Of a stretch of DNA of 64,000 nt, positions 5,097-31,372 are shown one piece after another. Source of the stretch: an uncultured Opitutales bacterium. Lineage in GTDB: Bacteria > Verrucomicrobiota > Verrucomicrobiia > Opitutales > Intestinicryptomonadaceae. The translations under genes were made by a program, and so were the position numbers. The notes beneath the pieces are model-generated. The model made no database searches. It saw only the letters and a program-made list of their open reading frames with translations, and was not told the DNA's origin. The first letter of the stretch is position 1. Each line of letters opens with the position of its first letter. The stretch is taken from contig CALXLK010000011.1 in the NCBI GenBank assembly GCA_944389175.1, forward strand, positions 1-64,000, given 5' to 3'.

Positions 5097-6341
5097 ATGC
5101 ATTGTATGGTTTTAAGATTATTCCTAATATATATTTTTTTGTATTCAGCTTGTTATGCGGAGAAATCGGTCAAAGAAGTCCAAGCATACAATATGATTGA
5201 AAAAGCAAAAGCTGAGAACGTTATTCAGGCGGGTTTAATCAACGCTATATATTTTCTCAATACCGAATATTTTGTTTTGGAAGGTGAAAATAGGAAGATT
5301 AGAAATCCTTTATATTCTCCAGAACAAGCCCGGGACTACGTTAATCTTCTTATCAGAACTCTCAACTTGTCGCGCGTGGATGTTCTCGCCAAAATGATTG
5401 ATGAAATACATATGGTGGAAATTTGTGTTTCAAAACTTGTTAAAAAATACAAAGAATTGTGGACTCCCTCCAAAGATTTTTACGACAGATTAAAGTTAAT
5501 AAGCAAAGACTTTACTAAAAGATATAATAACATTGTCGCCATGGCCAAAGAGGATAAAACTTTTGATGGTTTTATATATAAAAAGTGTGGTTTTTATGAA
5601 CCCGGGAATACATCTTTACAGCGTTCTTTGTACTACCAGGGATTTAATCCTGAGTTTTGCAAGTCTATGATATATGAGAATAAATATGGAGGAATGGATC
5701 AGCCGCCGTTGAATATGACGCCCTCAGATGAGGATTTAAAGACAGACGTTGTTCCCCGAGATGCCAGAAAAGCCTACCAGTACGCTATATTGAATTCAAC
5801 GTTGTTTGATACAAGCAATTATGCCAACCTATGTCTAAACGGAATAGGCACCGAAAAGAGGCCAGATATTGCAGCGCTTGTATTTTCACGCAGTGTTTTT
5901 TGGAATTGGTCTGCAGAGGATATCGTTAAACAAAAAAAAGAGGCTGCCTTTCGGTGGGATACCCGTGAATATTTTATGCCTCTGTACGCCTATATGCTCT
6001 ACAATGGAATCGAAATAAAGAAAGACAAAGCCAAATGCGACACAATTTTGATGATTCCAATTTATAACGAGTGCTGGAAGAATTTTTATTGCGGTTGGTT
6101 CGCGCCCAAAGATTTTGAATTTGCCGTGTATTGTTTGGAGCTTCTAAATAAGAAGGTCTCCGAGGGAAATCTGGAAGAAATATTGAAGAATATAGAAGAC
6201 AAGCCGTTAAAATTGCCCGCGGAGTACTTGGCTGAGATATACGAGGGGAAATTCAATCCCAAACATAAAGATCCTAAAAAAGCCTCATATTGGAGAGATA
6301 TTGCAGATAAGCAAAAAAATACGCACCTATTGAAACAATAG
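5097..6341 (+). CDS. Exported helical-repeat (Sel1-like) protein
   Basis: A 414-residue protein with an N-terminal signal peptide (LFLIYIFLYSACYA). The start could be ATG 5097 or ATG 5106; neither has a clear ribosome-binding site. The body is helical, with Sel1-like units near residues 240-265 (YANLCLNGIGTEKRPDIAAL) and 300-320. It is convergent with the metallopeptidase-like gene at 6434-7948, less than 100 bases away. This mirrors the Sel1/effector pair at 3213-4821, so an effector-binding role is possible. Its stop codon lies inside the following terminator hairpin. Confidence 0.65.
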   Translation: MHCMVLRLFLIYIFLYSACYAEKSVKEVQAYNMIEKAKAENVIQAGLINAIYFLNTEYFVLEGENRKIRNPLYSPEQARDYVNLLIRTLNLSRVDVLAKMIDEIHMVEICVSKLVKKYKELWTPSKDFYDRLKLISKDFTKRYNNIVAMAKEDKTFDGFIYKKCGFYEPGNTSLQRSLYYQGFNPEFCKSMIYENKYGGMDQPPLNMTPSDEDLKTDVVPRDARKAYQYAILNSTLFDTSNYANLCLNGIGTEKRPDIAALVFSRSVFWNWSAEDIVKQKKEAAFRWDTREYFMPLYAYMLYNGIEIKKDKAKCDTILMIPIYNECWKNFYCGWFAPKDFEFAVYCLELLNKKVSEGNLEEILKNIEDKPLKLPAEYLAEIYEGKFNPKHKDPKKASYWRDIADKQKNTHLLKQ

Positions 6342-6354
6342 GTGCGTATTTTTT
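6314..6354 (+). terminator. Perfect 19-bp terminator containing the stop codon
   Basis: Arms 6314-6332 and 6336-6354 are exact reverse complements around a three-base loop (AAA), with A-runs and T-runs at the outer ends, so it can work in both directions. The TAG of the preceding gene (6339-6341) is within the right arm. It separates two convergent genes. Confidence 0.85.
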
Positions 6355-11522: not shown

Positions 11523-11936
11523 TTATATTTTGTTGTATCTATCGTACTCGCTCATTCGCAAGTCGCGCACCAGGGATTTTCTTATGTACTCCATGAAACT
11601 TAGCGGCACATAGGCTTCTCCGCCGCGGGTCGACCCCTTTGAGTCTATGACTACCTTGCCGCTGTAAACGTGTATCTTAAGCTTTGCGTGCTGCATTCCG
11701 TTTAATTGTTCGACTACAATGGGATTGCCGTCGTCCAAAACATTCCATCGCCTTTCGCGCAAAATCTTCATTAAAACCGAGTGTATGTCGGCCTTGCTTG
11801 CTTGAAGGTCCCCTATGACAATTGAGGGCGAGCCCTGTTCTCCGAACATTAGGCTGTTGTCTGTCGTATTTGTCGTGCATCCAAATAGAAGAAGCATTGA
11901 AATCAACACCGCATATATGCTTTTACTTATCTTCAT
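11523..11936 (-). CDS. Predicted lipoprotein of the CsgG-like operon
   Basis: A 137-residue protein with a lipoprotein signal (ISMLLLFGC, lipobox Cys near residue 20). The mature part is small and contains alternating strands and helices (IHSVLMKILRERRWNVL, LKIHVYSGKVVIDSKG, FMEYIRKSLVRDLRMSEYD). Its start overlaps the end of the TPR gene upstream by 14 bases, which implies translational coupling. It is likely anchored in the outer membrane. No known family recognised. Confidence 0.65.
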   Translation of the reverse strand: MKISKSIYAVLISMLLLFGCTTNTTDNSLMFGEQGSPSIVIGDLQASKADIHSVLMKILRERRWNVLDDGNPIVVEQLNGMQHAKLKIHVYSGKVVIDSKGSTRGGEAYVPLSFMEYIRKSLVRDLRMSEYDRYNKI

Positions 11937-13140
11937 CTTTTATTAGGTTTAAAATTTCCTTTGCCCTTTGGACTGTCCATTCCGTACCGGGTTGCCGCTC
12001 CAACGCCCGATTAGCCCAGTAAGCCGCCATATCGTAGTTTTTCAGCTCGTAAAAGCATTTTGCCAAATTTGCCTTTGCGTAGGGCGTGTCTTCGTTTATG
12101 GATACCGCCTGGGCGTAAAATAATATCGCGTGCGACCATTTTTTCTCTTCCTCGTAGGTTCTGCCTATCAGGTTGAACATCGTATCGGATACTGACTCAG
12201 CCAGCGATGTTAGCGCGTATTCCCTGACTTTTTTGAAGTCTGGTTTGGGATTGGAAAACTCGGACAGGGCGTTGTCGGCAGAGTCGTTTTTTTCCGCCGA
12301 ATTTTCAAATGAAATAGACGATTTTTTCTGTGATAGTATTTTTACAAGCGGAATTTCCCCATCTGCGTTTACAGACACATCGATTTTTACAGGCGCCGAT
12401 ACCGGAATCTTTATGCCCGATAACATTGAGGCGCTCAACGGGTATCCCCTCCTTGATATTTCTCCGACCAGCCTTTTGAACGTCTCGTCTATGCCCACAA
12501 ACATTTCGGCGGCGAGGCAGAGTTCGCTATCATTGAACTTTTCTACCGGTATATTCCCCATGTCTTTCGCCAGCCAAGATTCGGGCACCGATTTTAGCGG
12601 CAATCTTTTGCGGCAGCATTGAATTTTGGAGTTTTCAGGGAAAAGTTCGCCTTCCGGATACTTTAGAATTAGGGCAGTCTCAAGTTGCAGCAGTTTGTTG
12701 CGCGCCAATCCCGCTATTAGGCGTTTATGGTCCTTGGTAAAATCTATTACGGGGAAGTTTTCTATGTTCTTTTGGGGGATTTGCAATACGCAGCAGGCCC
12801 GCCCGTCTTTTAATATTACAGTCCTTATGATTTTTGCGTTATTTATGGCTCCCGAAATATGCTCGTAGAATACGCTATATTTTATTTTGCCTGACAGCGG
12901 CGCTAGCTCGTTCGGCAGAATGGCCTTTTCCGAGACGGCGAATTTTGCAAACTCTTCTTGGGCGCTTAATTCGGCCCTCGTCAGGGCATTTTCCTTTGAG
13001 GCGTCGCTCTGGGAGCGAACTTGCGCGTACCCGGTGACGTAATAGAACCCGCCATCGCGGATTATTTCACCGCATAGACGGTTGCAGAGACAGCATAAAC
13101 CTGTCGCTGCAATCACCTCGAATATATTAGAAATCCTCAC
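11923..13140 (-). CDS. Exported protein with LPP20-like N-terminus and TPR C-terminus
   Basis: 405 residues. After a short hydrophobic leader rich in Cys, the N-terminal part reads GFYYVTGYAQVRSQSDASKE followed by ALTRAELSAQEEFAKFAV, the strand-then-'A..A...A' helix layout of LPP20/FlgT-N-like domains. Residues about 310-400 hold TPR units (AILFYAQAVSINEDTPYAKA, NYDMAAYWANRALERQPG). The gene overlaps both neighbours by 14 bases. A scaffold or assembly role in the envelope is likely, inferred from domains and operon. Confidence 0.65.
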   Translation of the reverse strand: MRISNIFEVIAATGLCCLCNRLCGEIIRDGGFYYVTGYAQVRSQSDASKENALTRAELSAQEEFAKFAVSEKAILPNELAPLSGKIKYSVFYEHISGAINNAKIIRTVILKDGRACCVLQIPQKNIENFPVIDFTKDHKRLIAGLARNKLLQLETALILKYPEGELFPENSKIQCCRKRLPLKSVPESWLAKDMGNIPVEKFNDSELCLAAEMFVGIDETFKRLVGEISRRGYPLSASMLSGIKIPVSAPVKIDVSVNADGEIPLVKILSQKKSSISFENSAEKNDSADNALSEFSNPKPDFKKVREYALTSLAESVSDTMFNLIGRTYEEEKKWSHAILFYAQAVSINEDTPYAKANLAKCFYELKNYDMAAYWANRALERQPGTEWTVQRAKEILNLIKDEDK

Positions 13141-14521
13141 TTTCTATGCTTTGAATTTTATATTTTTGCGCTTCGACAGAGCGCCCTTTGCCCGAATCGG
13201 CGTTATTTGCAGAGCGCTGGGCTGCGGAATTGTCGCCCCCTCTTCTGACTGCCGTATTGCCTCCCCTGTTGAGAGTAGCATCGCGCATGCTTTCCCTGCT
13301 TGTATTTGCCGTGTCTGAAGTCTTTATGCTCCACATTCTGACTACCCCGCAAATTATCGAACCCGAACGCGGGTCTGTTATTTCCCAAGAACGTATCGTA
13401 GATATACCGGGAATGCTGAGGGCACCGGCTTCGGTCTCTATCATTTTGCTCATGGTTTCTTCGACAGACTTAGCCGTCATGGCTTCGGTTTCTTTACCGG
13501 TTTCCAGACCATTTTTTGTGCCCGCATATGCTACTGTTTCGCCCGCGAAATTTCTTATGAAGCCGTCGGCTTCGAGTGTGGCCTTTTCATATGCCATGTC
13601 GATTGAAGTGGCGCTTTTACTCCTGGCTTTTGTCTGCCCGTAGGAAATTATTACTATGTTTCCGTCTTCATCGGACGTCATTTGTACTCCAATCGACGGA
13701 TATAGTTGCGAAATCTTTAACTTCTTTATCCAGATTCCCACCGGATCGCCTTTCCTGGGCGTAACTTTTGGCGCATAGCCGGTTCCGTTAATGGCGCCTG
13801 CCAACAACTTGGTATTCTCAGAGTAATAGCAGACAACAGTAATCTTTTTGTCTTGCTCGAAGATTTTGGAAGTAATTAGCGCTCCAACTTGCGTCTTGGC
13901 AAGTGCCTCGACAGAATCAGAAAATACGCTTTCATTCAATACATCTTCAATGATAGGCTTTGCCTTTTTGTCGGTGATATTTACACCGGATTTTTTTAAC
14001 GCGTCATCCAATTTCTTATTGACTAACATCTTGACCTTGTCGAAAATCGTCGGCGGTATGCTGGCTTTGGCTTCGGCTTCCGCCATTATTGCTTTTGCGG
14101 ATTGCGGTTCCAATGCGGCATATTTTGATCTCGTGGATATTTCCTGTGCGAAAAATCTCGTAATCGCGGATTTTGCATTTAGCATTGCCTTTTTGTACGC
14201 GTTGACACGGTATATCTGGAAGTCCTTGTCTGCCGGTGACACCTCTATGGCCGAACTTCCGATTGCCACATATCTGCCGTCTTTGTTTAGGCCTTCTACC
14301 CATCCCTTTTTTATGAGATAATCGTTCGCCGCGCTTTTTGCGTCGCTTACTGCTTCAGCCTGGGCGTCGAGTTCGGATAGAAAACTCAGGCTTCCCGCGG
14401 AATCGGCGGCCGGAGCGCTCTCCTGGGCCGCGGCCTGTGGTTGATTGCCCGCAGCTTGGGCGAATAGGCTCGCGCTTGAAAGTGTTGCGGCAACTATTGT
14501 CGCTATAATTTTTTCTACCAT
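13127..14521 (-). CDS. Exported protein with two LPP20-like modules
   Basis: 464 residues with a signal peptide (IIATIVAATLSSASLFAQAA), then a Gln/Ala-rich linker and two similar modules: VAIGSSAIEVSPADKDFQIY plus AYKKAMLNAKSAITRFFAQE (residues about 85-130), and IISYGQTKARSKSATSIDMA plus AYEKATLEADGFIRNFAGE (about 285-330). A Ser/Arg/Asn-rich tail follows. The general look is of the DUF6844-type proteins seen in Verrucomicrobiota, which I name only as a resemblance. It overlaps the CsgG-like gene by 7 bases and the TPR gene by 14. Confidence 0.6.
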   Translation of the reverse strand: MVEKIIATIVAATLSSASLFAQAAGNQPQAAAQESAPAADSAGSLSFLSELDAQAEAVSDAKSAANDYLIKKGWVEGLNKDGRYVAIGSSAIEVSPADKDFQIYRVNAYKKAMLNAKSAITRFFAQEISTRSKYAALEPQSAKAIMAEAEAKASIPPTIFDKVKMLVNKKLDDALKKSGVNITDKKAKPIIEDVLNESVFSDSVEALAKTQVGALITSKIFEQDKKITVVCYYSENTKLLAGAINGTGYAPKVTPRKGDPVGIWIKKLKISQLYPSIGVQMTSDEDGNIVIISYGQTKARSKSATSIDMAYEKATLEADGFIRNFAGETVAYAGTKNGLETGKETEAMTAKSVEETMSKMIETEAGALSIPGISTIRSWEITDPRSGSIICGVVRMWSIKTSDTANTSRESMRDATLNRGGNTAVRRGGDNSAAQRSANNADSGKGRSVEAQKYKIQSIESEDF

Positions 14522-15735
14522 ACAATATCCTCTTTGTTTGATAATTTTTCCTGTTTTTTAGGAGATTTTTTATCCTTTAAAATTCTGCATACGATTTCTT
14601 TTTGCTTAAATATTTCTTTTATATTTTCGCTGTCATTCAATATGCGAGCGTCGCTTGTTTTGCTTTTAACGCGGATAATCTCAATATCGCCGCATTTTGT
14701 CTCTTTCCTGCCGAGCGATTCGCCGGTGTATGGGTCTTTTATTATTTCCCCCAAGGCAAACATTTCGTACCTGTCGCCTTCGACGACGCTTTCGCCGCCC
14801 TGGTTTAAGATAACCTCGTCCCCTTCAACCGCGACGACTCTCAGCGGATATATATTATCAATTACTTTTTTTACCGCTGTATCGGCGAATTTTTTGAAAA
14901 TATCAATTATCGGGGAATCAATATTGCGGGATAGCGTTACTTTTGTGTTGATAAGGCCTGAAAATTTTATCTGCCTTGTGGCTACATCTATAAATCTCAG
15001 GCTAACCCCGCAGCCGGAATCGTTAAAAGACGTTTTCAACCCCGACATTTCCATGTTAACCGACTTCTGCACAGATGTTAGCGACTCGACGCCCCCGACA
15101 ACTATGTAGTCTGCCCCGAGAACCTGCCCGAATTTGCACATTTCCTCTATCGGTGTGTCGGCGTTTGCAATTGTGGCCTTTTCTTGAAGAATGTCGTCGG
15201 CGTATTCCCTGTCCAAGACGGTAAATTTTCGCGTGGCCACCATTTTGTCGACAAGCGCCTGCGTGGAAATCCTGGATACGTCTTCCTTCGACACATCGGA
15301 GTCTCCGACATTGTATTTATCCTTGAGTGTTTTAAGCGGGAATATGGCAATTCTAAGCCTATTTTGGTTGCCATTGTCGTATTTGGCAATCTTTGCCCTG
15401 ACTTTCGCCTCCTTTATACCGCTTTCGGTTTTGTTTACCGATATAATTTCGTAAGAGGCCACGATGCCCCTGGTCGCCGAAGCGACTCTCTTTTTAAGCT
15501 TTTGGCTGGAATACGACTCGTCGTCGGAAATGCTTTCCACGGCTTCCAGCTGGCTTTTTGTCGATATCGCCAGGCCGTTTACTTGCGATACGCACTCTAC
15601 TATGGCAGACTCCACCGCCGAATTGTCGTCGGCTCCGCGCCCGGTGCCCTCCACATCGACATACTTTATTTTTTGTGCGCCCGCATCCAGCAGCGACGCC
15701 AAAATAACGATGAATGAAATCAGCGCGTTTTTCAC
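14515..15735 (-). CDS. CsgG/HfaB-like outer-membrane assembly protein
   Basis: 406 residues. A signal peptide (residues 1-20, no lipobox Cys) is followed by an LPP20-like segment, then a CsgG domain at about 145-290: LRIAIFPLKTLK, QALVDKMVATRKFTVLDREY, then KFGQVLGADYIVVGGVESL and VSLRFIDVATRQIKFSG. CsgG forms the curli secretion pore; relatives help anchor holdfasts or flagellar rings. The C-terminal part (GDEVILNQGGESVVEGDRYEM, DPYTGESLGRKETKCGDIEI) resembles the FlgT C-terminal domain. The start overlaps the preceding gene by 4 bases (ATGA). It is the only recognisable core of the operon, though loss of the lipid anchor is unusual for CsgG. Confidence 0.75.
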   Translation of the reverse strand: MKNALISFIVILASLLDAGAQKIKYVDVEGTGRGADDNSAVESAIVECVSQVNGLAISTKSQLEAVESISDDESYSSQKLKKRVASATRGIVASYEIISVNKTESGIKEAKVRAKIAKYDNGNQNRLRIAIFPLKTLKDKYNVGDSDVSKEDVSRISTQALVDKMVATRKFTVLDREYADDILQEKATIANADTPIEEMCKFGQVLGADYIVVGGVESLTSVQKSVNMEMSGLKTSFNDSGCGVSLRFIDVATRQIKFSGLINTKVTLSRNIDSPIIDIFKKFADTAVKKVIDNIYPLRVVAVEGDEVILNQGGESVVEGDRYEMFALGEIIKDPYTGESLGRKETKCGDIEIIRVKSKTSDARILNDSENIKEIFKQKEIVCRILKDKKSPKKQEKLSNKEDIVW

Positions 15736-16820
15736 AGCAGTCCTTTGCCCCTTAACTTATCTATTATTTCTTCGGCGGCGCTTTTTGCGCAATTGTCCAG
15801 GGCGTTTTTCTTGGCCAACGACTGGTCGCTTCCAATGCCCCTTACCGTTATGGGCCTGAGCGAAGCCAGTATTTTGGGAAATTTGCCCGAAATATTGTAA
15901 ATTTTGGCGGAGACGGTTGCCGAAACCAGAGGTTTGCCCGTCGCCGCGTGAATTTGTTTTGCGCTTAAATCCACCGTTCCTACCACTATATATTTTATAT
16001 CGTTTTCAGGGTCCTTCAACTCACGCATAATTTTACGCCAAGTAGCGGGTTTTATGCTGGTGCCCTTGCCGTAATCCTCCTGCATGAGCCCTATCGAATC
16101 AAAAAACGACCCGTCGGAAATGTTTTCCATGCCCTTTGAAGAAAATACGTCTGTGAGAAATCCCCCGAATTCGCCCCGGCTTACCTCGTCTATCCTGTAC
16201 TCTTGGACATCGCTTTTGTTTATCGTGGAGCCCCCCGTGGTCACGACGCTCATGCTCTCGGCGGACTCCCTAACGGCATTGGAGCCGTCCGAATTTTCCG
16301 CGCTTATGGCGCCGGATTTTTCGCCTTGGCTCTTCTCAACTTTTGTGACTTTCGCATCGAAAGACGTAGTGGCGGCAACTTCTCTTGCTATGAAGAACAC
16401 CACTATGTTGTTTTTTGCAAGCGTGGCGTCCTTTGAGCCAAACGAGTCGCCAATGTCGTTTTTTATTTTGGCATCGTCTACTATCGCCTCTATTATGACA
16501 GAGTACATTCTGGATTTTTTATCCATTTTATCCTTTGCCACATTGTATCTTATTATGTAGCGGTCGGGATTTGAAAGAAACTGGGCTCTCTTTTGTTCAA
16601 AGAGCTTTCTCGTCGCATCCGGCAGAGTGTCCGCGTAGGCTAGCACCGCGTTTGACTTGGCCTTGTTTAACGCGTGTACGCGCTCGTCTTCGTCGGGAGA
16701 CGACTTGAAAATGCCGTCAGAGTATTGGTAGTCGCCTTTCCCTATGACCATCGTTTCGGCATGCGCAAACACGGGCAATATCAAAAGAATTGCCGCCAGT
16801 ATGTTCCTGATTGTACTCAT
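15732..16820 (-). CDS. Exported LPP20/FlgT-N-like protein
   Basis: 362 residues with a clear signal peptide (ILAAILLILPVFAHA). The segment VIGKGDYQYSDGIFKSSPDE plus HALNKAKSNAVLAYADTL (residues 26-70) has the same strand/helix design as the N-termini of three neighbouring proteins. A Ser/Glu-rich stretch sits mid-protein, and the C-terminal part (YIVVGTVDLSAKQIHAATGK, VSATVSAKIYNISGKFPKIL) recalls the peptidoglycan-associated or CsgG-like 'gadyvv.G' strands. It ends in a 4-base overlap with the CsgG-like gene. It may interact with that protein; no function is known. Confidence 0.65.
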   Translation of the reverse strand: MSTIRNILAAILLILPVFAHAETMVIGKGDYQYSDGIFKSSPDEDERVHALNKAKSNAVLAYADTLPDATRKLFEQKRAQFLSNPDRYIIRYNVAKDKMDKKSRMYSVIIEAIVDDAKIKNDIGDSFGSKDATLAKNNIVVFFIAREVAATTSFDAKVTKVEKSQGEKSGAISAENSDGSNAVRESAESMSVVTTGGSTINKSDVQEYRIDEVSRGEFGGFLTDVFSSKGMENISDGSFFDSIGLMQEDYGKGTSIKPATWRKIMRELKDPENDIKYIVVGTVDLSAKQIHAATGKPLVSATVSAKIYNISGKFPKILASLRPITVRGIGSDQSLAKKNALDNCAKSAAEEIIDKLRGKGLL

Positions 16821-16822
16821 TT

Positions 16823-17959
16823 TTATTTACAGTTTTGAATTATTGGGGGAAATTCGCTGAACTTCTCGTCGTTTTTTAGCCTTTGGCCGGCCGACTGAGT
16901 AAGCATTATCAAGACGTTCATATATTCGGCGTCGAAGGGCCAATTCTTTTCTTCGCCGGCTATGTACACGGAGGAATTGCCTTTGCCTATCGTCCTGTTG
17001 AATACAATTTCATCTTCAATATCCCTCACCGATACGCGGTACGAGGCCCCAAAAAAGTAGGTTCTAATTCCCCGGTTTTCCTCCGCTATCTTTGAGAGCA
17101 ACTTTCTTAGCGATATGTCTATTTTATAGGTTGATCGCGGCGGATGCAATAATAGCTGGTTTGTAAGCTTCTCGGCTTCCACATATCCGTCGGCCATGAC
17201 ATAAAATATTTCAGAGCCTTCGTACGAATACGGAATGACTGGCACTTCAAAATTTTTGTATATATAAGCTCCAAACAAATTGGCTATAAACTCCTGGGCT
17301 TCCTCCTGGCTGAATCCCATCTTTTGGACATTGTCGCTGGCTTCGGGAAGTATGTTAACTTTCGATACCCCTATCGACGAGGCGTGCATCCTCTCCGGAG
17401 TTATCTTCGATATTACCTCTATAAAAAAATCAAAAATATTTAGGTTTTCAGACCCCACCACAAACGCATCTCTGCCGTATATCTTTTCGAAGATTGATTC
17501 TATTTGTTTTTCATCCGGCGGAACGTCGCAGATTTGTGAATACGAAATTATAAAGGGATGCGAGGCCAAAATTGATTTGCTTTTGAAATCGAAGAACATC
17601 GCCTCCGCAACGATGAAAACTTCTAGCTTATATTTATTAAAGCCCGACAGCTTTGATACGTAATTTTTTTCTAAGTCCACCACGAACGCAAGGCTTACAG
17701 CGTCGCCTTTTATGGAGCCGAGATCCTGCGTGAGTACGCTAAAGTTCGAGCCTCTATATTGGGAAAGCCTCTCGGCCAGAACTTTGTTTAAAGAGTTTTT
17801 TTTAGTAAGCTTCCATGAAAAAGGGAAGCGCTTTGCCACGCTGTTTTCTCCCGCCGATTTCCCGGCAAAGACTATGCCCGAATTTACAACCTCCATGCCG
17901 TTCAAAAAGCATGCGGGAAACGCGAGCAAGGCAAGTACAAGCAGCAAAGCGCCCCTCAT
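16823..17959 (-). CDS. Exported protein of unknown family
   Basis: 378 residues with a hydrophobic leader (LLLVLALLAFPACFLNG; Cys17 could be a lipobox). The rest is mixed alpha/beta with no motif I recognise; segments such as NKVLAERLSQYRGSNFSVL and YKLEVFIVAEAMFFDF suggest a CsgG-like 'A-domain' order, but weakly. It starts three bases after the stop of the first operon gene and ends two bases before the next, so it is an operon member. Confidence 0.6.
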   Translation of the reverse strand: MRGALLLVLALLAFPACFLNGMEVVNSGIVFAGKSAGENSVAKRFPFSWKLTKKNSLNKVLAERLSQYRGSNFSVLTQDLGSIKGDAVSLAFVVDLEKNYVSKLSGFNKYKLEVFIVAEAMFFDFKSKSILASHPFIISYSQICDVPPDEKQIESIFEKIYGRDAFVVGSENLNIFDFFIEVISKITPERMHASSIGVSKVNILPEASDNVQKMGFSQEEAQEFIANLFGAYIYKNFEVPVIPYSYEGSEIFYVMADGYVEAEKLTNQLLLHPPRSTYKIDISLRKLLSKIAEENRGIRTYFFGASYRVSVRDIEDEIVFNRTIGKGNSSVYIAGEEKNWPFDAEYMNVLIMLTQSAGQRLKNDEKFSEFPPIIQNCK

Positions 17960-17962
17960 TAA

Positions 17963-18580
17963 TTAGTCCTCAAGATCGGATTGTTTTGCAACCTTGTCGG
18001 CGACGGCGTTGACGTCGTCCATGCTGATGCCGTTTTCCGTGGCATACACGGTGTAGGCGTCAATAGTTACGGCTACATTCTTGAGGTCTGTCCCCATTGC
18101 GTCGGAGAGGCTCGTCAGGAAGCTGAGCTGGCTTGCGGCGCTGCCGAACGGGTTCGAAGCCGCCTCTTGCTGGAGGGCCTTTACGCTTTGAAGAACTTTA
18201 TCCAAAAGAATCTTTTCCTGCGCGACACCGCCGATCAGGTATCCCAGGGACTCTACAAATTCCTTCTTTGCAGATTCCGAAGCAAGCTTGACGGCCTTGT
18301 CCATTTCGGGCATCTTGCTTGCGTCCAGAACCGCTTTCGTATCGCTCAAGTTTTTGGCTCTCTTGAGCTGATCCAGCTGCGCCTGCATTTTGTTGGCCTC
18401 GTCGTTGTTGCCAACGCAATTGGCCGCGTGGATTCTCGCCTGCATGTATTTTGCGCAGATCCCCTTATAGGACTTGAAATCCGCATTGTTAGATACGTCG
18501 GTATCCCCGCCGCCAAGTGTTCCACAGGCAACAAGTGCCAATGACGCCATTACCAATATACTTTGATATATTTTTTTCAT
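17963..18580 (-). CDS. First gene of the CsgG-like operon, helical lipoprotein
   Basis: 205 residues from ATG 18580. I prefer this start because MKKIYQSILVMASLALVAC is a textbook lipoprotein signal with lipobox LVAC; a longer frame to 18631 would bury it. The mature protein is almost all helix with Ala/Lys/Gln-rich heptads (MQAQLDQLKRAKNLSDTKAV, KILLDKVLQSVKALQQEA), perhaps a periplasmic coiled coil. It lies 55 bases from the left arm of the inverted repeat and is probably the first gene expressed from it. Confidence 0.65.
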   Translation of the reverse strand: MKKIYQSILVMASLALVACGTLGGGDTDVSNNADFKSYKGICAKYMQARIHAANCVGNNDEANKMQAQLDQLKRAKNLSDTKAVLDASKMPEMDKAVKLASESAKKEFVESLGYLIGGVAQEKILLDKVLQSVKALQQEAASNPFGSAASQLSFLTSLSDAMGTDLKNVAVTIDAYTVYATENGISMDDVNAVADKVAKQSDLED

Positions 18581-18634
18581 TTTTCTTAATTTAGAGTTGG
18601 TTACTTTGTTAGAATTAAGTATGAACTGCATAGA

Positions 18635-18809
18635 GTATTACGAATACTTATGTTGCGATTTTTATTGGAAGTATATTGTTTACAAGTAGTAAGAAAAATG
18701 ACACGCGTTAAATTTTAATGTAAAGTTTTTCAATGCGTGATAAATACTTTCACTAAACGAATACTATATAGGCAAATAAAAAAAATATTGACATAAGTAT
18801 TCGTAATAC
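18635..18809. repeat. 175-bp segment bounded by perfect 19-bp inverted repeats (candidate inverton)
   Basis: The left arm, 18635-18653, reads GTATTACGAATACTTATGT; the right arm, 18791-18809, is its exact reverse complement. They enclose 137 AT-rich bases and sit between two divergent transcription units. Each arm contains a short palindrome (AGTATT-ACG-AATACT). The motif ACGAATACT recurs a third time at 18757-18765. The right arm ends one base before the recombinase start codon. This is the layout of an invertible promoter switched by an adjacent tyrosine recombinase; paired operators are the main alternative. Confidence 0.75.
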
Positions 18810-18810
18810 C

Positions 18811-19857
18811 ATGACAAATGAAATAGTTTCCGCACGGTTATTGCTTGAAGGTAGCGGTGTAACATTGCTTGAGGCGGCAATATTGGTGCGAAATATCCTC
18901 GATTCATCGCAAAGAATTTCAAAAAATTCTGCTATTGCGTTCTGCTATAAGGTGATTGAAACGGGGAAGAGGCACATCCGTTCAAAGGAGATGGCACTTA
19001 AGGAAGCCTTCCCGTTATACCTGCAATCAAAACAAGATTTGCGTCCAGACTCAATTAGGGATATCCGCTATCTCGGTCGTCGGCTCATAAAAACGGATCC
19101 GAAGCTTGCCGGGAGCAATTTTTCAGACATTAAGCTTGCCGATTGCCAACGTTGGCTGTCTTGCGCCTTTTCTACGCCCAGCCAATTTAACAAGGCCCGC
19201 ACTATGCTTCACGGCCTATTTGAGTTTGCCTTAAGGCACGAGTGGTGCGACCGAAATCCTATAAAGTTGGTAGGCCGAAGAAAGGTTATCGAAAAAGAAA
19301 TTTCGCCTCTGAATCTTTCGCAAATTAAGAATCTGATAAAGACGGCAAAGTTGCCCAAGCATAGGGAATGTCTGCCGGCGCTGGGGCTTTTGATGTTTGC
19401 AGGCATTAGGCCCAGGGAGGTGCATAGATTGACATGGAAGGATATAGATCTCGAAGAAAATTCCATTACAATTCATTCAATCTGCTCAAAGACTGGCGGT
19501 GTTCGTCAGGTTGAAATATGCCCGGCTCTAAAGAGACTGCTGATACCATACGCGAAAAATAAAAGCCAAGAGAAAATCTGCCCTCATGATTGGCAAAAGC
19601 GTTGGCGGGATATCAGAAACGATTCCGGATTTAAAGACGGGTGGGTTCAGGATGTTTTGCGGCATACCTACGCAAGCTACCATGCAAAGCGTTTTAAGGA
19701 TCTGCCGCGCTTGCAGTTAAACATGGGGCATTACGACATTTCGCTTTTGCGTTCCCGCTATGTGAATATGCGAGGAATATCCTATGTGCACGCAAGAACT
19801 TTTTTTAACAGAAATTTTTGCGAAAGTTCAACAGAGCAGATTGTCAAAGGACTCTAA
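18811..19857 (+). CDS. Tyrosine-type site-specific recombinase
   Basis: 348 residues. The N-terminal half (about 60-150) is a SAM-like core-binding domain (FPLYLQSKQDLRPDSIRDIR, ARTMLHGLFEFALRHEWCDR NPIK). The catalytic half has Arg in AGIRPREVHRLTW, Lys in the beta-hairpin SKTGGVRQVEI, VLRHTYASYH with the second Arg and following His, GH in MGHYD, and the nucleophile in SRYVNM. The first His of the usual HxxR is Asp here. No Shine-Dalgarno precedes the ATG, which is one base from the right inverted-repeat arm. A likely agent of inversion of the 18635-18809 segment, or an autoregulated integrase. Confidence 0.85.
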   Translation: MTNEIVSARLLLEGSGVTLLEAAILVRNILDSSQRISKNSAIAFCYKVIETGKRHIRSKEMALKEAFPLYLQSKQDLRPDSIRDIRYLGRRLIKTDPKLAGSNFSDIKLADCQRWLSCAFSTPSQFNKARTMLHGLFEFALRHEWCDRNPIKLVGRRKVIEKEISPLNLSQIKNLIKTAKLPKHRECLPALGLLMFAGIRPREVHRLTWKDIDLEENSITIHSICSKTGGVRQVEICPALKRLLIPYAKNKSQEKICPHDWQKRWRDIRNDSGFKDGWVQDVLRHTYASYHAKRFKDLPRLQLNMGHYDISLLRSRYVNMRGISYVHARTFFNRNFCESSTEQIVKGL

Positions 19858-25870: not shown

Positions 25871-26998
25871 TCAGGAGAGCCTTCCTTTAAAGTCTTCGTA
25901 GGAGAACTCTCTTATAAGGGAACACTCGCCGTTTGAATGCCGAATGGCTATTGCCGGCAGGGGAGTCCCGTTGAAGGTGTTTGTCTTTACCATGGAGTAT
26001 ATGGCCATGTCGGCGAAAGAGAGCCTTTGGCCGGGTTGCAGGGGAGCGTCGAACGAATAGTCGCCGATTACGTCTCCGGCGAGGCATGTGGGGCCTGCCA
26101 GCCTGTATGTGTACTTCTTTTCCCCGGGCATGGCGGAGTTTAGAAGCGGCGGCCTATACGGCATTTCCAAGACGTCTGGCATGTGGCAGGCCGCAGAGGC
26201 GTCGAGTATGGCTATTTCAATCTGGTTTTTTACGATATCCAGCACTTGGGTTTCCAAAAAGCCGGCGTTGAGCGCGACGGCTTCGCCGGGTTCCAGGTAG
26301 ACCTCGAGGCCGTACTTATTTTTCATGCGCATAACGCATTCGCACAGTGTGTCGATATCGTAGTCTTCCCTCGTAATGTGGTGCCCGCCGCCGAAGTTTA
26401 TCCATTTTATCAGCCCGAAGTATTTGCCGAATTTTTCCTCTACGGCATCCAGCGTTATTTTTAGCGCGTCGGAATTTTGCTGGCAGAGCGTGTGAAAGTG
26501 GATGCCGCTTACGCCGTCGAAAAGGCTCGGCTGAAGCTGCTCCGAAGTTATCCCGAGACGCGATCCCGCGGAACACGGGTCGTAAATTGCGTGATCGCAC
26601 TGCGTCGAGCACTGGGGATTTACCCTGATGCCGACTTCGGCGCCGCATTTTAGCGCCCTGTCTTTAAAGCGCCCGAGCTGCGAGACGGAATTGAAGACGA
26701 CGTGGTCGCATATTTGCGCGATTTCATCAAAGTCGCTGTCTTTGTAGGCCGTGCAAAAAACGTGGTTTTGCCCGCGGAAAGCTTCCCTGCCGAGCCGGGC
26801 CTCGTAGAGGCCGCTTGCCGTGGCTCCGTCGAGGTATTCGGATATGAGCCCGTAAAGGGCAAAGGCCGAAAAGGCCTTTTGCGCCAGCAGTATTTTACAT
26901 CCGCAGCGCTCTTTGACCCCCTTTAGAATCTCGAGGTTTCTTATTAGGGATCCCTCGTCTATTACGAAGCACGGGCTCGGCAGTTGGCTAAGTTGCAT
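25871..26998 (-). CDS. nspC: Carboxynorspermidine/carboxyspermidine decarboxylase
   Basis: 375 residues from ATG 26998, chosen because it lies two bases after the upstream stop and gives the usual family N-terminus (LPSPCFVIDEGSLIRNLEIL). It is a fold-III PLP enzyme: Lys in LLAQKAFS (residue 41) should bind the cofactor, GIHFHTLCQQN and NFGGGHH are phosphate-site loops, and LEPGEAV is the usual active-site turn. It decarboxylates carboxyspermidine to spermidine (or the nor-form). Last gene of the six-gene polyamine operon. Confidence 0.92.
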   Translation of the reverse strand: MQLSQLPSPCFVIDEGSLIRNLEILKGVKERCGCKILLAQKAFSAFALYGLISEYLDGATASGLYEARLGREAFRGQNHVFCTAYKDSDFDEIAQICDHVVFNSVSQLGRFKDRALKCGAEVGIRVNPQCSTQCDHAIYDPCSAGSRLGITSEQLQPSLFDGVSGIHFHTLCQQNSDALKITLDAVEEKFGKYFGLIKWINFGGGHHITREDYDIDTLCECVMRMKNKYGLEVYLEPGEAVALNAGFLETQVLDIVKNQIEIAILDASAACHMPDVLEMPYRPPLLNSAMPGEKKYTYRLAGPTCLAGDVIGDYSFDAPLQPGQRLSFADMAIYSMVKTNTFNGTPLPAIAIRHSNGECSLIREFSYEDFKGRLS

Positions 26999-27000
26999 AA

Positions 27001-28203
27001 TTAATCCACAAGCGCCGGGTTGAAACTTTCCTTCCAAGGCAGACCCCATTTGTTGAGGGCCTCCATAAACGGATCGGGGTCGAATTCTTCGATATTGAAT
27101 ACTCCCGGCTTATTCCAAGTCTTTGTCAGAAGCATCATAGCCCCGATCATTGCGGGTACCCCGGTAGTGTAGGCTACCGCTTGGCTGCCGACTTCGGCGT
27201 AGCAGTCTTCATGGGTGCAGACATTGTATACATAATAGCGGCGCTCCTTGCCGTCTTTGACGCCTTGGAATATGCAACCTATGTTTGTCTTGCCCTTTGT
27301 CCTCGGCCCGAGCGTCGAGGGATCGGGAAGGACGGCCTTTAAAAACTGCAGCGGAACAATTTTTTTGCCCTCGAATTCTATCGGCTCGATAGATGTCATT
27401 CCCACGTCTTCAAGGCATTTTAGATGCGTCAGGTAGCTCTGCCCAAAAGTCATGAAGAATCTGATTCTCTTTACCCCTTTTATATTCAAGGCCAGAGATT
27501 CAATCTCTTCGTGGTGGAGCAGGTACATATCCTTGGGACCTATTTCAGGGAAGTCGTAGACCCTCTTTATCTCCATGGGCTTTGTTTCCACCCACTTGCC
27601 GTTTTCCCAATAGCTGCCGTTTGCGGATACTTCCCTTATGTTTATTTCGGGGTTGAAGTTCGTGGCGAAGGGATAGCCGTGGTCGCCGGCGTTGCAGTCG
27701 AGTATGTCTATGTAGTTTATCTGGTCGAAATAGTGCTTTTGGGCGTACGCGCTGAAAACGCTCGTCACTCCGGGGTCGAATCCGCTCCCCAGCAGCGCCG
27801 TTATTCCGGCCTCTTCAAACCTCTTGCGGTAGGCCCACTGCCACTTGTATTCAAACTTTGCGGTGTCGCGGGGTTCGTAGTTTGCCGTATCAAGATAGTT
27901 TGTCTTGGTGGCAAGGCACGCTTCCATTATGGTTAAATCCTGGTAGGGAAGGGCTAAGTTCATCACGAGTTCAGGCTTGAAATCCCGTATGAGGGCAATG
28001 AGCTCGTCGACGTTGTCGGCGTCAACCCGCGCGGTCGATATTTTCGTCCGGGTGGTTTTCTCAAGCTTTGCTTTGAGCGCGTCGCACTTGCTTTTTGTGC
28101 GGCTTGCTATGCATATTTCGTCGAATACGGCGCTGTTTTGGCAGCACTTGTGTATTGCCACCGAGGCTACTGCGCCGCAGCCTATTATTAACGCTTTTGA
28201 CAT
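27001..28203 (-). CDS. Carboxynorspermidine/carboxyspermidine dehydrogenase
   Basis: 400 residues of the saccharopine-dehydrogenase-like fold. The N-terminus ALIIGCGAVASVAIHKCCQN is a Rossmann NAD(P)-binding turn; GSGFDPGVTSVFSAYA and DILDCNAGDHGYPFATNFNP are conserved in carboxy(nor)spermidine dehydrogenases. It condenses aspartate semialdehyde with putrescine (or diaminopropane) and reduces the imine with NADPH. It lies next to nspC, its pathway partner, in the same operon; spacing to the preceding agmatinase is 22 bases. Confidence 0.92.
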   Translation of the reverse strand: MSKALIIGCGAVASVAIHKCCQNSAVFDEICIASRTKSKCDALKAKLEKTTRTKISTARVDADNVDELIALIRDFKPELVMNLALPYQDLTIMEACLATKTNYLDTANYEPRDTAKFEYKWQWAYRKRFEEAGITALLGSGFDPGVTSVFSAYAQKHYFDQINYIDILDCNAGDHGYPFATNFNPEINIREVSANGSYWENGKWVETKPMEIKRVYDFPEIGPKDMYLLHHEEIESLALNIKGVKRIRFFMTFGQSYLTHLKCLEDVGMTSIEPIEFEGKKIVPLQFLKAVLPDPSTLGPRTKGKTNIGCIFQGVKDGKERRYYVYNVCTHEDCYAEVGSQAVAYTTGVPAMIGAMMLLTKTWNKPGVFNIEEFDPDPFMEALNKWGLPWKESFNPALVD

Positions 28204-28225
28204 TGGTGTTTCCTTTTGTTTGGTT

Positions 28226-29074
28226 TTAAAGACTTAGAAGTATCTCCCTGATTATTTTGCAGGCCAGCGCCGTGGAGGCGCCGCTTTGGTCGTACGTCGG
28301 CGAGAGTTCGTTTACGTCGCAGGCCACTACGTTGCCGGTTTCAGCAACCTTTAAAAGCGCTCTCCTCAACTCTTCAAAGCTCACCCCGCCCGCCTCGGGC
28401 GTGCCGGTGCCGGGAAATTCCGACGGGTCGAGCACGTCGAGATCGACCGTCATATATATGGGTGCCCCGGCTATCTTATCTAGCGCATGCTCTATATTGT
28501 TGAGGTTAAATTTATTCATGAAAACATGGCTCTTGGCCCACTCAAACTCGGGCCTGTCCCCGGATCGAATGCCGAATTGAAATATGCGGGCATCTCCGAG
28601 AATGTCGTGGCAGCGGCGCATCACAGTAGCATGCGAGAGCTTTTGCCCGAGGTATTCGTCGCGCAAGTCGGTGTGCGCGTCGAAATGTATGATGTTTAAT
28701 TCCGGGAACTTTTTCGCCGCAGCCCTGACGGCGCCGAGGCTTACCAGATGTTCGCCTCCGACCATAAACGGCTTCTTGTTTAAGCCCAGTATTTCCGCAG
28801 ACGTATCCTCTATGATCTTGAGGACGGCCTCGGGATTGCCAAAGGGAAACTCGAGATCGCCGAGATCGCACACTTTGATGTCGGACAAATCCTTGTCTTG
28901 ATACGGGCTGTAAGTCTCTATCCCGAAAGATTCCCCCCTTATGGCCTTGGGGGCAAAACGCGTCCCGGGGCGGTAGGATACCGTGCCGTCAAACGGGGCC
29001 CCAAAGAGCACTATTTGGGCGCTTTGCAAATCGGAATCGCACGATATGAAGTCTTGTCTGGCTTTATTCAACAT
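28226..29074 (-). CDS. speB: Agmatinase
   Basis: 282 residues of the ureohydrolase family. Manganese-binding motifs are clear: GGEHLVSLGAVRAA, HFDAHTDLRDEYLG and TVDLDVLDPSEFPGTGTPE. It hydrolyses agmatine to putrescine and urea, which links the arginine decarboxylase to both spermidine branches encoded around it. Its start overlaps the end of speE by 11 bases, so the two are probably coupled in translation. Confidence 0.93.
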   Translation of the reverse strand: MLNKARQDFISCDSDLQSAQIVLFGAPFDGTVSYRPGTRFAPKAIRGESFGIETYSPYQDKDLSDIKVCDLGDLEFPFGNPEAVLKIIEDTSAEILGLNKKPFMVGGEHLVSLGAVRAAAKKFPELNIIHFDAHTDLRDEYLGQKLSHATVMRRCHDILGDARIFQFGIRSGDRPEFEWAKSHVFMNKFNLNNIEHALDKIAGAPIYMTVDLDVLDPSEFPGTGTPEAGGVSFEELRRALLKVAETGNVVACDVNELSPTYDQSGASTALACKIIREILLSL

Positions 29075-29915
29075 CTTTGAGCATCTCCTCTACGTAGGTG
29101 GGCAGCGCAAAAGCGCCGCAGTGAAGGTTTGTGTTGTAATATTTTGTCTTTATCTTTAGCGCGTTCCAGCGCTGCGCGTTCAAGTCTTTAACGGGGTGGT
29201 ACTTCTTCGACGCGAATCCGAAAAGCCAATGCCCGGACGGATAGGTGGGTATGTGGCATTGGTAGACTTTGGCTATCGGAAAACGCCTGTATATGTGCTT
29301 GTGGGCGCGCGCCATAGCAAGGGCGTCGTTTTCGTAAAAGGGGCTCTCGTGCTGGTTGATAAGAATGCCGTTCTTGCGCAGAGCCTTGTTGCAGCTGCCG
29401 AAAAATTCTTTGGTAAAGAGCCCCTCGCCGGGCCCGAACGGGTCGGTGGAATCGACTATTATGAGATCGTAGCAGTTGCTCTTGCCCCGCACAAATTTTA
29501 TGCCGTCTTGGAAGAATAGCTCCACCCGCGGATCGTCGAATCCGCAGGCAGTCTGGGGCAGGAATTCCTTCGAGGCCTTGACTACGTCTTCGTCTATTTC
29601 GACGACGTCGATCTTTTTTATGCTCTTGTAGCGCCCCAGCTCCCTGGCGACGCCGCCGTCGCCGGCGCCAATCACGAGCACGTCGTGCACTCGCGGATGC
29701 ACGGCCATCGCCGTGTGGGTTATCATTTCATGGTATATGTACTCGTCCTTTTCGGTGAGCATCATGACGCCGTCGAGGGCGAGGAAACGCCCAAATTCAG
29801 GAGACTCGAATATGTCTATCTGCTGAAAATCGCTTTCTTTCGAGAAGAGCTGGCGGCTGACCTTTATAGAAAAGTTGACGTTCGGCGTGTGTTTTTCCGT
29901 AAACCAGAGTTCCAT
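29064..29915 (-). CDS. speE: Spermidine synthase (aminopropyltransferase)
   Basis: 283 residues from ATG 29915; MELWFTEKHTPNVNFSIKV is the typical N-terminus, and this start is two bases after the upstream stop. Motifs include LDGVMMLTEKDEYIYHEMI, VLVIGAGDGGVARELGRY (S-adenosyl binding) and VDSTDPFGPGEGLFTKEFF. It transfers an aminopropyl group from decarboxylated S-adenosylmethionine to putrescine. Present with its substrate-making partner speD in the same operon. Confidence 0.93.
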   Translation of the reverse strand: MELWFTEKHTPNVNFSIKVSRQLFSKESDFQQIDIFESPEFGRFLALDGVMMLTEKDEYIYHEMITHTAMAVHPRVHDVLVIGAGDGGVARELGRYKSIKKIDVVEIDEDVVKASKEFLPQTACGFDDPRVELFFQDGIKFVRGKSNCYDLIIVDSTDPFGPGEGLFTKEFFGSCNKALRKNGILINQHESPFYENDALAMARAHKHIYRRFPIAKVYQCHIPTYPSGHWLFGFASKKYHPVKDLNAQRWNALKIKTKYYNTNLHCGAFALPTYVEEMLKDVE

Positions 29916-29917
29916 TT

Positions 29918-31372
29918 CTATTTCTCCTTTAGCACGTTTAACTTCGACACGGAAATATCCTCGGTGCCCGTCATAGAGCATCCTTTCGACTTGGCGTATT
30001 TTATGTATTCTATTATCTCCTCAGTGACAACTTCGCCCGCGGCTAAAATCGGAATCCCCGGCGGGTAGCACATTACGACTTCGCAGCAGACGCGCCCCAG
30101 CGCCTTTGAAAGCGGCACTTGCTCCTTTTGCCCGTAGAAGGCCTCCTGCGGCGAAAGGGCGACCTTCGGGCTTATGAATTCTTTGGAAAAGGCCTTCGAC
30201 TTTGAGCGGCGCCTCGACGTGCGAATTTGAGCCAGCGCGCTGACGAGCCTTTCTATGTCGCACTCGCGGTCTCCCACCGACAGGTAGGCCAGTATGTTGG
30301 CCAAGTCGCCGAATTCGATTTGAATGTCGTATTCGTCGCGCAGCATGTCGTAGACTTCTATGCCGGCTATGCCCGCGCCAAGCGTGTATACGGAGAGCTT
30401 TGTGATGTCGAAATCGAAGACGTCCTTGCCGTCGATTAGCTCTCTCGAGTAGGCCCAGTAGTCGCCTATGGAGTTTATTTCAGACCTCGCGTATTCGGCC
30501 AATTGGCAAACCTTGGCAAAAATTTCGGCCCCGTGTATTGAAAGCTCCCTGCGCGACAAATCGAGACTCGACATTAGCAGGTACGAGGCGCTTGTCGTCT
30601 GCGACAAGTTTATTATCTGGCGCATGTAGCCCTTGTTTATGGCTTTTCCCGCGAGTAAAATCGAGCTTTGCGTGAGGCTTCCTCCGGACTTGTGCATGCT
30701 TACCGCGGCCAAGTCTGCGCCCGCTTTCATCGCCGATACGGGCATGTCTTTGCCGAAATAAAAATGGGCGCCGTGGGCTTCGTCCACCAATACGAGCATG
30801 TTTTTTGAATGCGCCATCTTCACTATTTTTTTCAGGTCTGAGCATATGCCGTAGTAGGTGGGGTTGTTTACAAGCACGGCCTTTGCGTCGGGGTTTTGCC
30901 TTATTGCTTTTTTTAAGTCGCCGACAGACATGCCGAGGGCTATGCCGAGCTTGGAATCGACTGCCGGATTCACATAGACGGGCACCGCTCCGCACAAAAC
31001 AAGCGCGTTTATTGCGCTTCTGTGGACGTTGCGCGGCAGTATTATCTTGTCTCCGCGCTTGCACGCGTACAGGACCATGCTCTGGACGGCGCTCGTCGTG
31101 CCGTTTACCATGAAGAATGAGTGCGCGGCGCCGAAGGCCTCGGCCGCCAGCTGCTGGGCCTGCTCTATGACCGACACGGGGTGGCAGAGATTGTCAAGCG
31201 GCTTCATCGAATTGACGTCGATAGACAGGCACTGCTTACCCAGAAATTCGGCCAGTTTCGGGTTCCCGCGCCCGCGCTTGTGGCCGGGGACGTCGAATGG
31301 GACTACGCGCATCTGCCTGAAACGGAGCATCGCCTCGTACAGCGGCGCCCTTGAAAAGTCGGGTCTTTTCAT
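29918..31372 (-). CDS. Arginine (Orn/Lys/Arg-type) decarboxylase
   Basis: 484 residues of the aspartate-aminotransferase-fold decarboxylases (Bacillus SpeA type), not the E. coli SpeA fold. The start has VPFDVPGHKRGRGNP, then LVDEAHGAHFYFG and the PLP lysine in VSMHKSGGSLTQSS; the C-terminal part has YPPGIPILAAGEVVTEEII. With agmatinase in the operon, arginine is the most likely substrate; lysine or ornithine cannot be excluded from sequence. It starts one base after speD's stop and lies two bases before speE. Confidence 0.88.
   Translation of the reverse strand: MKRPDFSRAPLYEAMLRFRQMRVVPFDVPGHKRGRGNPKLAEFLGKQCLSIDVNSMKPLDNLCHPVSVIEQAQQLAAEAFGAAHSFFMVNGTTSAVQSMVLYACKRGDKIILPRNVHRSAINALVLCGAVPVYVNPAVDSKLGIALGMSVGDLKKAIRQNPDAKAVLVNNPTYYGICSDLKKIVKMAHSKNMLVLVDEAHGAHFYFGKDMPVSAMKAGADLAAVSMHKSGGSLTQSSILLAGKAINKGYMRQIINLSQTTSASYLLMSSLDLSRRELSIHGAEIFAKVCQLAEYARSEINSIGDYWAYSRELIDGKDVFDFDITKLSVYTLGAGIAGIEVYDMLRDEYDIQIEFGDLANILAYLSVGDRECDIERLVSALAQIRTSRRRSKSKAFSKEFISPKVALSPQEAFYGQKEQVPLSKALGRVCCEVVMCYPPGIPILAAGEVVTEEIIEYIKYAKSKGCSMTGTEDISVSKLNVLKEK

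Follow-up and report, generated by a model that had tools for sequence, protein, structure and literature searches.

Exact inverted repeats lie between a minus-strand operon and a plus-strand tyrosine recombinase gene in the window (the whole 64,000-nucleotide stretch analysed here, from an uncultured Opitutales bacterium), raising the question of whether the DNA between them is an invertible switch and what its flipping would change. Both arms are present and exact where the original prediction had placed them, 19 bp each around 137 bases, and, as it had also claimed, a single base (18810, C) separates the right arm from the recombinase ATG at 18811. The whole switch spans 175 bases and comprises the following features.

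18635-18653, plus strand: left arm, exact inverted repeat, GTATTACGAATACTTATGT
18635-18647, plus strand: putative recombination site in the left arm, GTATT-ACG-AATAC, a site found family-wide
18654-18790, no strand: segment predicted to invert, with opposite orientations at related loci
18791-18809, minus strand: right arm, exact inverted repeat, the exact reverse complement of GTATTACGAATACTTATGT
18797-18809: putative recombination site in the right arm, GTATT-CGT-AATAC, its core matched to the left-arm core

The match between the two arms goes well past what chance would produce. Among exact inverted repeats of at least 13 nt with a gap of 60-300 nt, the arms are the only one in the window; the longest chance repeat was 15 in 60 first-order Markov windows and 14 in 4000 simulations of the local 300-bp AT-rich sequence, against 19/19 observed, bearing out the earlier statement that such a match is very unlikely by chance. 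The repeat extends imperfectly to 32 nt at 84%. No second copy of the exact arm was found elsewhere in the genome, and the one match with three mismatches, at C3:22443, is part of another element of the same kind.

The genes on the two sides are as follows.

17963-18580, minus strand: operon gene 1, putative lipoprotein, 205 aa, signal recognized by inspection
16823-17959, minus strand: operon gene 2, putative exported lipoprotein, no Pfam match
15732-16820, minus strand: operon gene 3, putative exported protein
14515-15735, minus strand: operon gene 4, CsgG-domain protein (PF03783, E 4.4e-13)
13127-14521, minus strand: operon gene 5, exported protein with a weak DUF6844 match
11923-13140, minus strand: operon gene 6, exported TPR protein
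11523-11936, minus strand: operon gene 7, putative lipoprotein, 137 aa, by inspection
18811-19857, plus strand: intact tyrosine recombinase, 348 aa (PF00589, E 1.8e-12)

The operon (11523-18580) thus holds seven genes and not the eight first proposed. They are closely spaced, and inspection shows an export signal at the N-terminus of every product; the description as a CsgG-like exported-protein operon agrees with gene 4 and with these signals. For gene 1, the ATG at 18580, which opens a lipoprotein signal by inspection, is a better start than 18631. No homologue of gene 1 was found in the other 18 family genomes, and no copy of the same operon without the switch was found, CsgG relatives being only ~30% identical. 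The recombinase, likewise correctly called from the sequence, conserves R200, K227, R284, H307 and Y317, with D281 apparently in place of the usual first H of HxxR; a sequence scan found no promoter of its own. Elsewhere in the window, the hairpin at 6314-6354, with a perfect 19-bp stem and a loop of 3 nt, is probably a terminator, and 25871-31372 on the minus strand is by inspection an apparent polyamine cluster with decarboxylases and saccharopine-dehydrogenase-like, agmatinase-like and spermidine-synthase-like genes.

Throughout the genus and family, genomes carry multiple homologues of the recombinase; several of these genomes belong to Opitutales of the animal gut and rumen, and more distant relatives are found in Akkermansia. 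In the Opitutales, almost every intact copy is preceded by an inverted repeat whose end lies 1-3 nt from the start codon. We searched 19 family genomes for GTATT-NNN-AATAC, 148-166 nt and a second GTATT-NNN-AATAC, matching cores not being required, and found 37 elements in 13 of the 19, while the reversed control pattern gave no match in the same genomes. The two 3-nt cores were reverse complements in 37/37 elements and represented 16 different cores; by chance this would be expected at 1/64 per independent pair, some of the 37 being related copies. Cores that vary and yet always match their partner are explained if the sites undergo strand exchange, since such sites must match each other. The elements fall into two length groups, 174-180 and 185-192 bp, a difference of roughly one turn of the helix.

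A homologous tyrosine recombinase starts directly beside 28 of these elements; the other nine lack one nearby, and in the fetched flanks of the eight that were checked no homologue was found beyond weak fragments. One recombinase-less element, G000:C3:22268-22455 (L126:6269-6456), lies in the window's own genome, carries the core pair ACG/CGT as in the window, and has an arrangement, TTGACC-16-TATAGT before a 51-aa reading frame, that would be ON. The window recombinase might act on it in trans. The shared ACG/CGT was not adopted as proof of such action, other recombinase-less elements lacking the cores of their genomes' recombinase loci.

Comparison of related loci shows, at the level of sequence, that members of this element family flip. 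In the same genome, L021 and L050 are 87.5% identical in the recombinase region, while pieces of their segments match on opposite strands, L021 being the reversed element with TTGACA-18-TATGAT directed toward the other gene. Similarly, L164 and L170 from Akkermansia are 83% identical and in the same orientation in the recombinase region, while the segment matches on the opposite strand. Both orientations are therefore present among related loci. In recombinase-linked elements the -35 mostly faces the recombinase, the putative OFF state, with L021 reversed and the decayed L060 likewise having its -35 toward the operon. Of the elements that lack a recombinase, L012, L112 and L132 would be ON, whereas L131, L137 and the two L133 elements would be OFF. 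The window locus itself has end inverted repeats with matched cores and a dedicated recombinase with its catalytic residues. The proposal of an inverton therefore stands, on paired matched sites, a linked tyrosine recombinase, a surface-gene target and relatives carrying opposite segment orientations; from these we infer flipping in the window species, promoter activity, the ON/OFF labels and a phenotype.

The promoter elements bear on what flipping would do.

18788-18793, plus strand: TTGACA, putative -35, directed out of the segment across the right arm and, as assembled, facing the recombinase
18628-18633, minus strand: TATGCA, weak candidate -10 of the operon with 3/6 matches, proposed from the family trend

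TTGAC stands at this place, 3 nt inside one arm and pointing outward, in 36/37 elements, the exception, L023, having TTGCA. With TTGAC at the segment end and a spacing of 16-18 nt, the -10 must fall just beyond the arm. Counting as -10-like any hexamer with at least four matches to TATAAT at 16-18 nt spacing, we found one on the operon side in 19/27 loci and on the recombinase side in 0/28; shuffled operon flanks gave a mean of 10.9 loci (p 0.0015). Recombinase-less elements had such a hexamer on one side only in 7/9 cases, leading to a signal-peptide gene in six and to the 51-aa reading frame at C3:22268 in the seventh. In the window, TATGCA comes to lie 18 nt from TTGACA only after inversion of the segment. 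The most likely mechanism is accordingly a split promoter: the segment would supply the -35, the fixed DNA past the far arm the -10, and the arm itself the spacer. This is a simple switch design in which a promoter would be assembled by flipping the -35 half only. Since YRTA is found at the inner arm edge as well, the recombinase site may account for some of the -10 signal. The initial idea of a promoter exchanged by inversion between operon and recombinase gained no support, there being one outward half promoter and no -10-like hexamer on the recombinase side. A literature search found no split promoters in invertons, which does not prove their absence.

We therefore regard the locus as quite probably a recombinase-linked phase-variation inverton, in which the tyrosine recombinase would bind the two GTATT-ACG-AATAC sites and flip the DNA between them, flipping being predicted because the 3-nt cores match only in inverted alignment. 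In the assembled state the -35 (TTGACA) would face the recombinase start codon, and since a -10 is absent on that side the surface operon would be OFF. In the inverted state the -35 would face the operon with the arm as a 16-18 nt spacer, so that the fixed-flank -10 would complete the promoter and turn the operon ON. The cassette, made up of the segment, the recombinase gene and ~30 nt of flank on the operon side, appears to have been copied as a unit before different, mostly exported-protein, genes. A wider form of this proposal, which we advance tentatively and rate somewhat below even, is that the fixed -10, invertible -35 and own recombinase make up a self-contained, copyable Verrucomicrobiota cassette that renders a neighbouring gene phase-variable, its site doubling as spacer and its core barring recombination between unlike cores.

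Other readings of the locus can be weighed against the same observations. An inverton whose promoter lies wholly inside the segment, serving operon and recombinase alternately as first proposed, would be in keeping with an internal promoter-like match directed toward the recombinase (ATGACA-17-TAAAGT, 18698-18726). The shuffled region, however, averages 2.2 such matches, and of the promoter-like elements only the outward TTGAC is nearly invariant, its place at the end of the segment putting the -10 outside; we consider this reading unlikely. Alternatively, the system might be real but now locked or dead in the window species, its arms intact and flipping ceased. The poor candidate -10 in the window and another copy in the same genome (L061), decayed and without its left arm, point this way, whereas the perfect arms, matched cores and intact recombinase with conserved residues argue against it, and we judge such a loss quite improbable.

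The remaining two readings deny inversion altogether. Arms that are operators of an ordinary regulator, perhaps for autoregulation of the recombinase, would account for sites that are short palindromes adjoining a start codon. A regulator would, however, conserve the centre of its site, whereas here the centre varies among loci yet always matches its partner; these variable but matched cores, together with a segment that occurs in both orientations, lead us to reject the operator reading as scarcely credible. Were the arms instead the end of a mobile element, with the recombinase as its integrase and not an invertase, the multiple copies, their frequent decay and the one pair copied as a unit would be accounted for, but the arms are both on one side of the recombinase gene, homology stops at the stop codon with no arm downstream of the gene, and comparison of loci indicates that the segment between the arms flips. 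With no arm at the stop end, we reject the transposon-end reading too as very improbable.

Returning to the phase-variation inverton, copying of the module is illustrated by L045 and L046 in G001, a genome with four elements. Near-identity of these two copies begins 30 nt left of the arm and runs to the recombinase stop codon (187/191 identical across the segment), and beyond these limits they are unrelated. Sharing of the module only was seen in this near-identical Opitutales pair and in one 92% Akkermansia pair. Recombinase dN/dS was 0.10-0.21 in five homologue pairs, a sixth being saturated, indicating that the recombinase is kept by selection. Partner genes encode, among others, an autotransporter, exported proteins of the pentapeptide-repeat and PEP-CTERM kinds and WavE-type LPS synthesis, and some partners are cytoplasmic, including a kinase, a dynamin-like protein and a TIR-like match below cut-off. 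The last, L082:6925-7680, lies behind the putatively ON L021; its product matches CAP12/Pycsar TIR weakly, and it may be a defence gene under phase variation. Similar small P-loop proteins of 142-158 aa are the partners at L069:7320-7793, L076:7343-7768 and L078:1949-2413, with no Pfam match in the one scanned. At L075, the short start of the exported protein resembles the N-terminus of these P-loop proteins, as if one partner gene had taken the place of another behind the same switch.

Among the Akkermansia homologues, 14/28 have upstream exact inverted repeats of at least 13 nt, including CGGATTNNNAATCCG, whereas shuffles gave none, and one genome holds seven such elements, all with matching cores and TTGAC beside one arm (7/7). 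CGGATT..AATCCG elements in Akkermansia are reported to invert and to set capsule ON/OFF, as in the cps1 switch (PMC13343947), and PMC11892184 found the motif again, as inverton group 138, in the vicinity of PEP-CTERM genes. In the part of PMC11892184 available to us, the recombinase links reported for inverton groups concern Clostridia and Bacteroidia, and neither PMC13343947 nor the available part of PMC11892184 names an enzyme for the CGGATT elements; the present analysis offers a candidate recombinase family for them. Like those invertons, the elements described here have short palindromic arms, a variable matched 3-nt core and an outward TTGAC beside the arm, and the CGGATT elements, 154-173 bp in the genome examined, in some cases lie beside homologous recombinases and have surface targets that include PEP-CTERM proteins. 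The arms differ, being GTATT..AATAC here and CGGATT..AATCCG there, so that our elements form a sister group of the Akkermansia inverton group and not a member of it, and most GTATT..AATAC elements carry their own recombinase about one base away. Inversion has been measured for the Akkermansia elements, whereas we infer it for the window element, which would bring phase variation, proven in Akkermansia, to a lineage of bacteria from the animal gut and rumen that has been little studied. Matching 3-nt cores also provide a sequence rule for spotting such switches in read-less assemblies.

With XerA/XerC the window recombinase shares the catalytic domain (NCBIfam XerA, E 6e-16; PDB 5hxy, E 2e-10), but it scores far below the NCBIfam XerA cut-off, at 58.8 versus 220 bits, and its family is multicopy and inverton-coupled, whereas XerA/XerC is a single chromosome-dimer resolvase. 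The combination of a tyrosine recombinase, short inverted repeats and surface genes is familiar from fimS with FimB and FimE and from the Tsr-linked promoters of Bacteroides. In E. coli fimS and in the capsule and Tsr-linked switches of Bacteroides the promoter lies inside the invertible segment, whereas in the window element only the -35 appears to do so.
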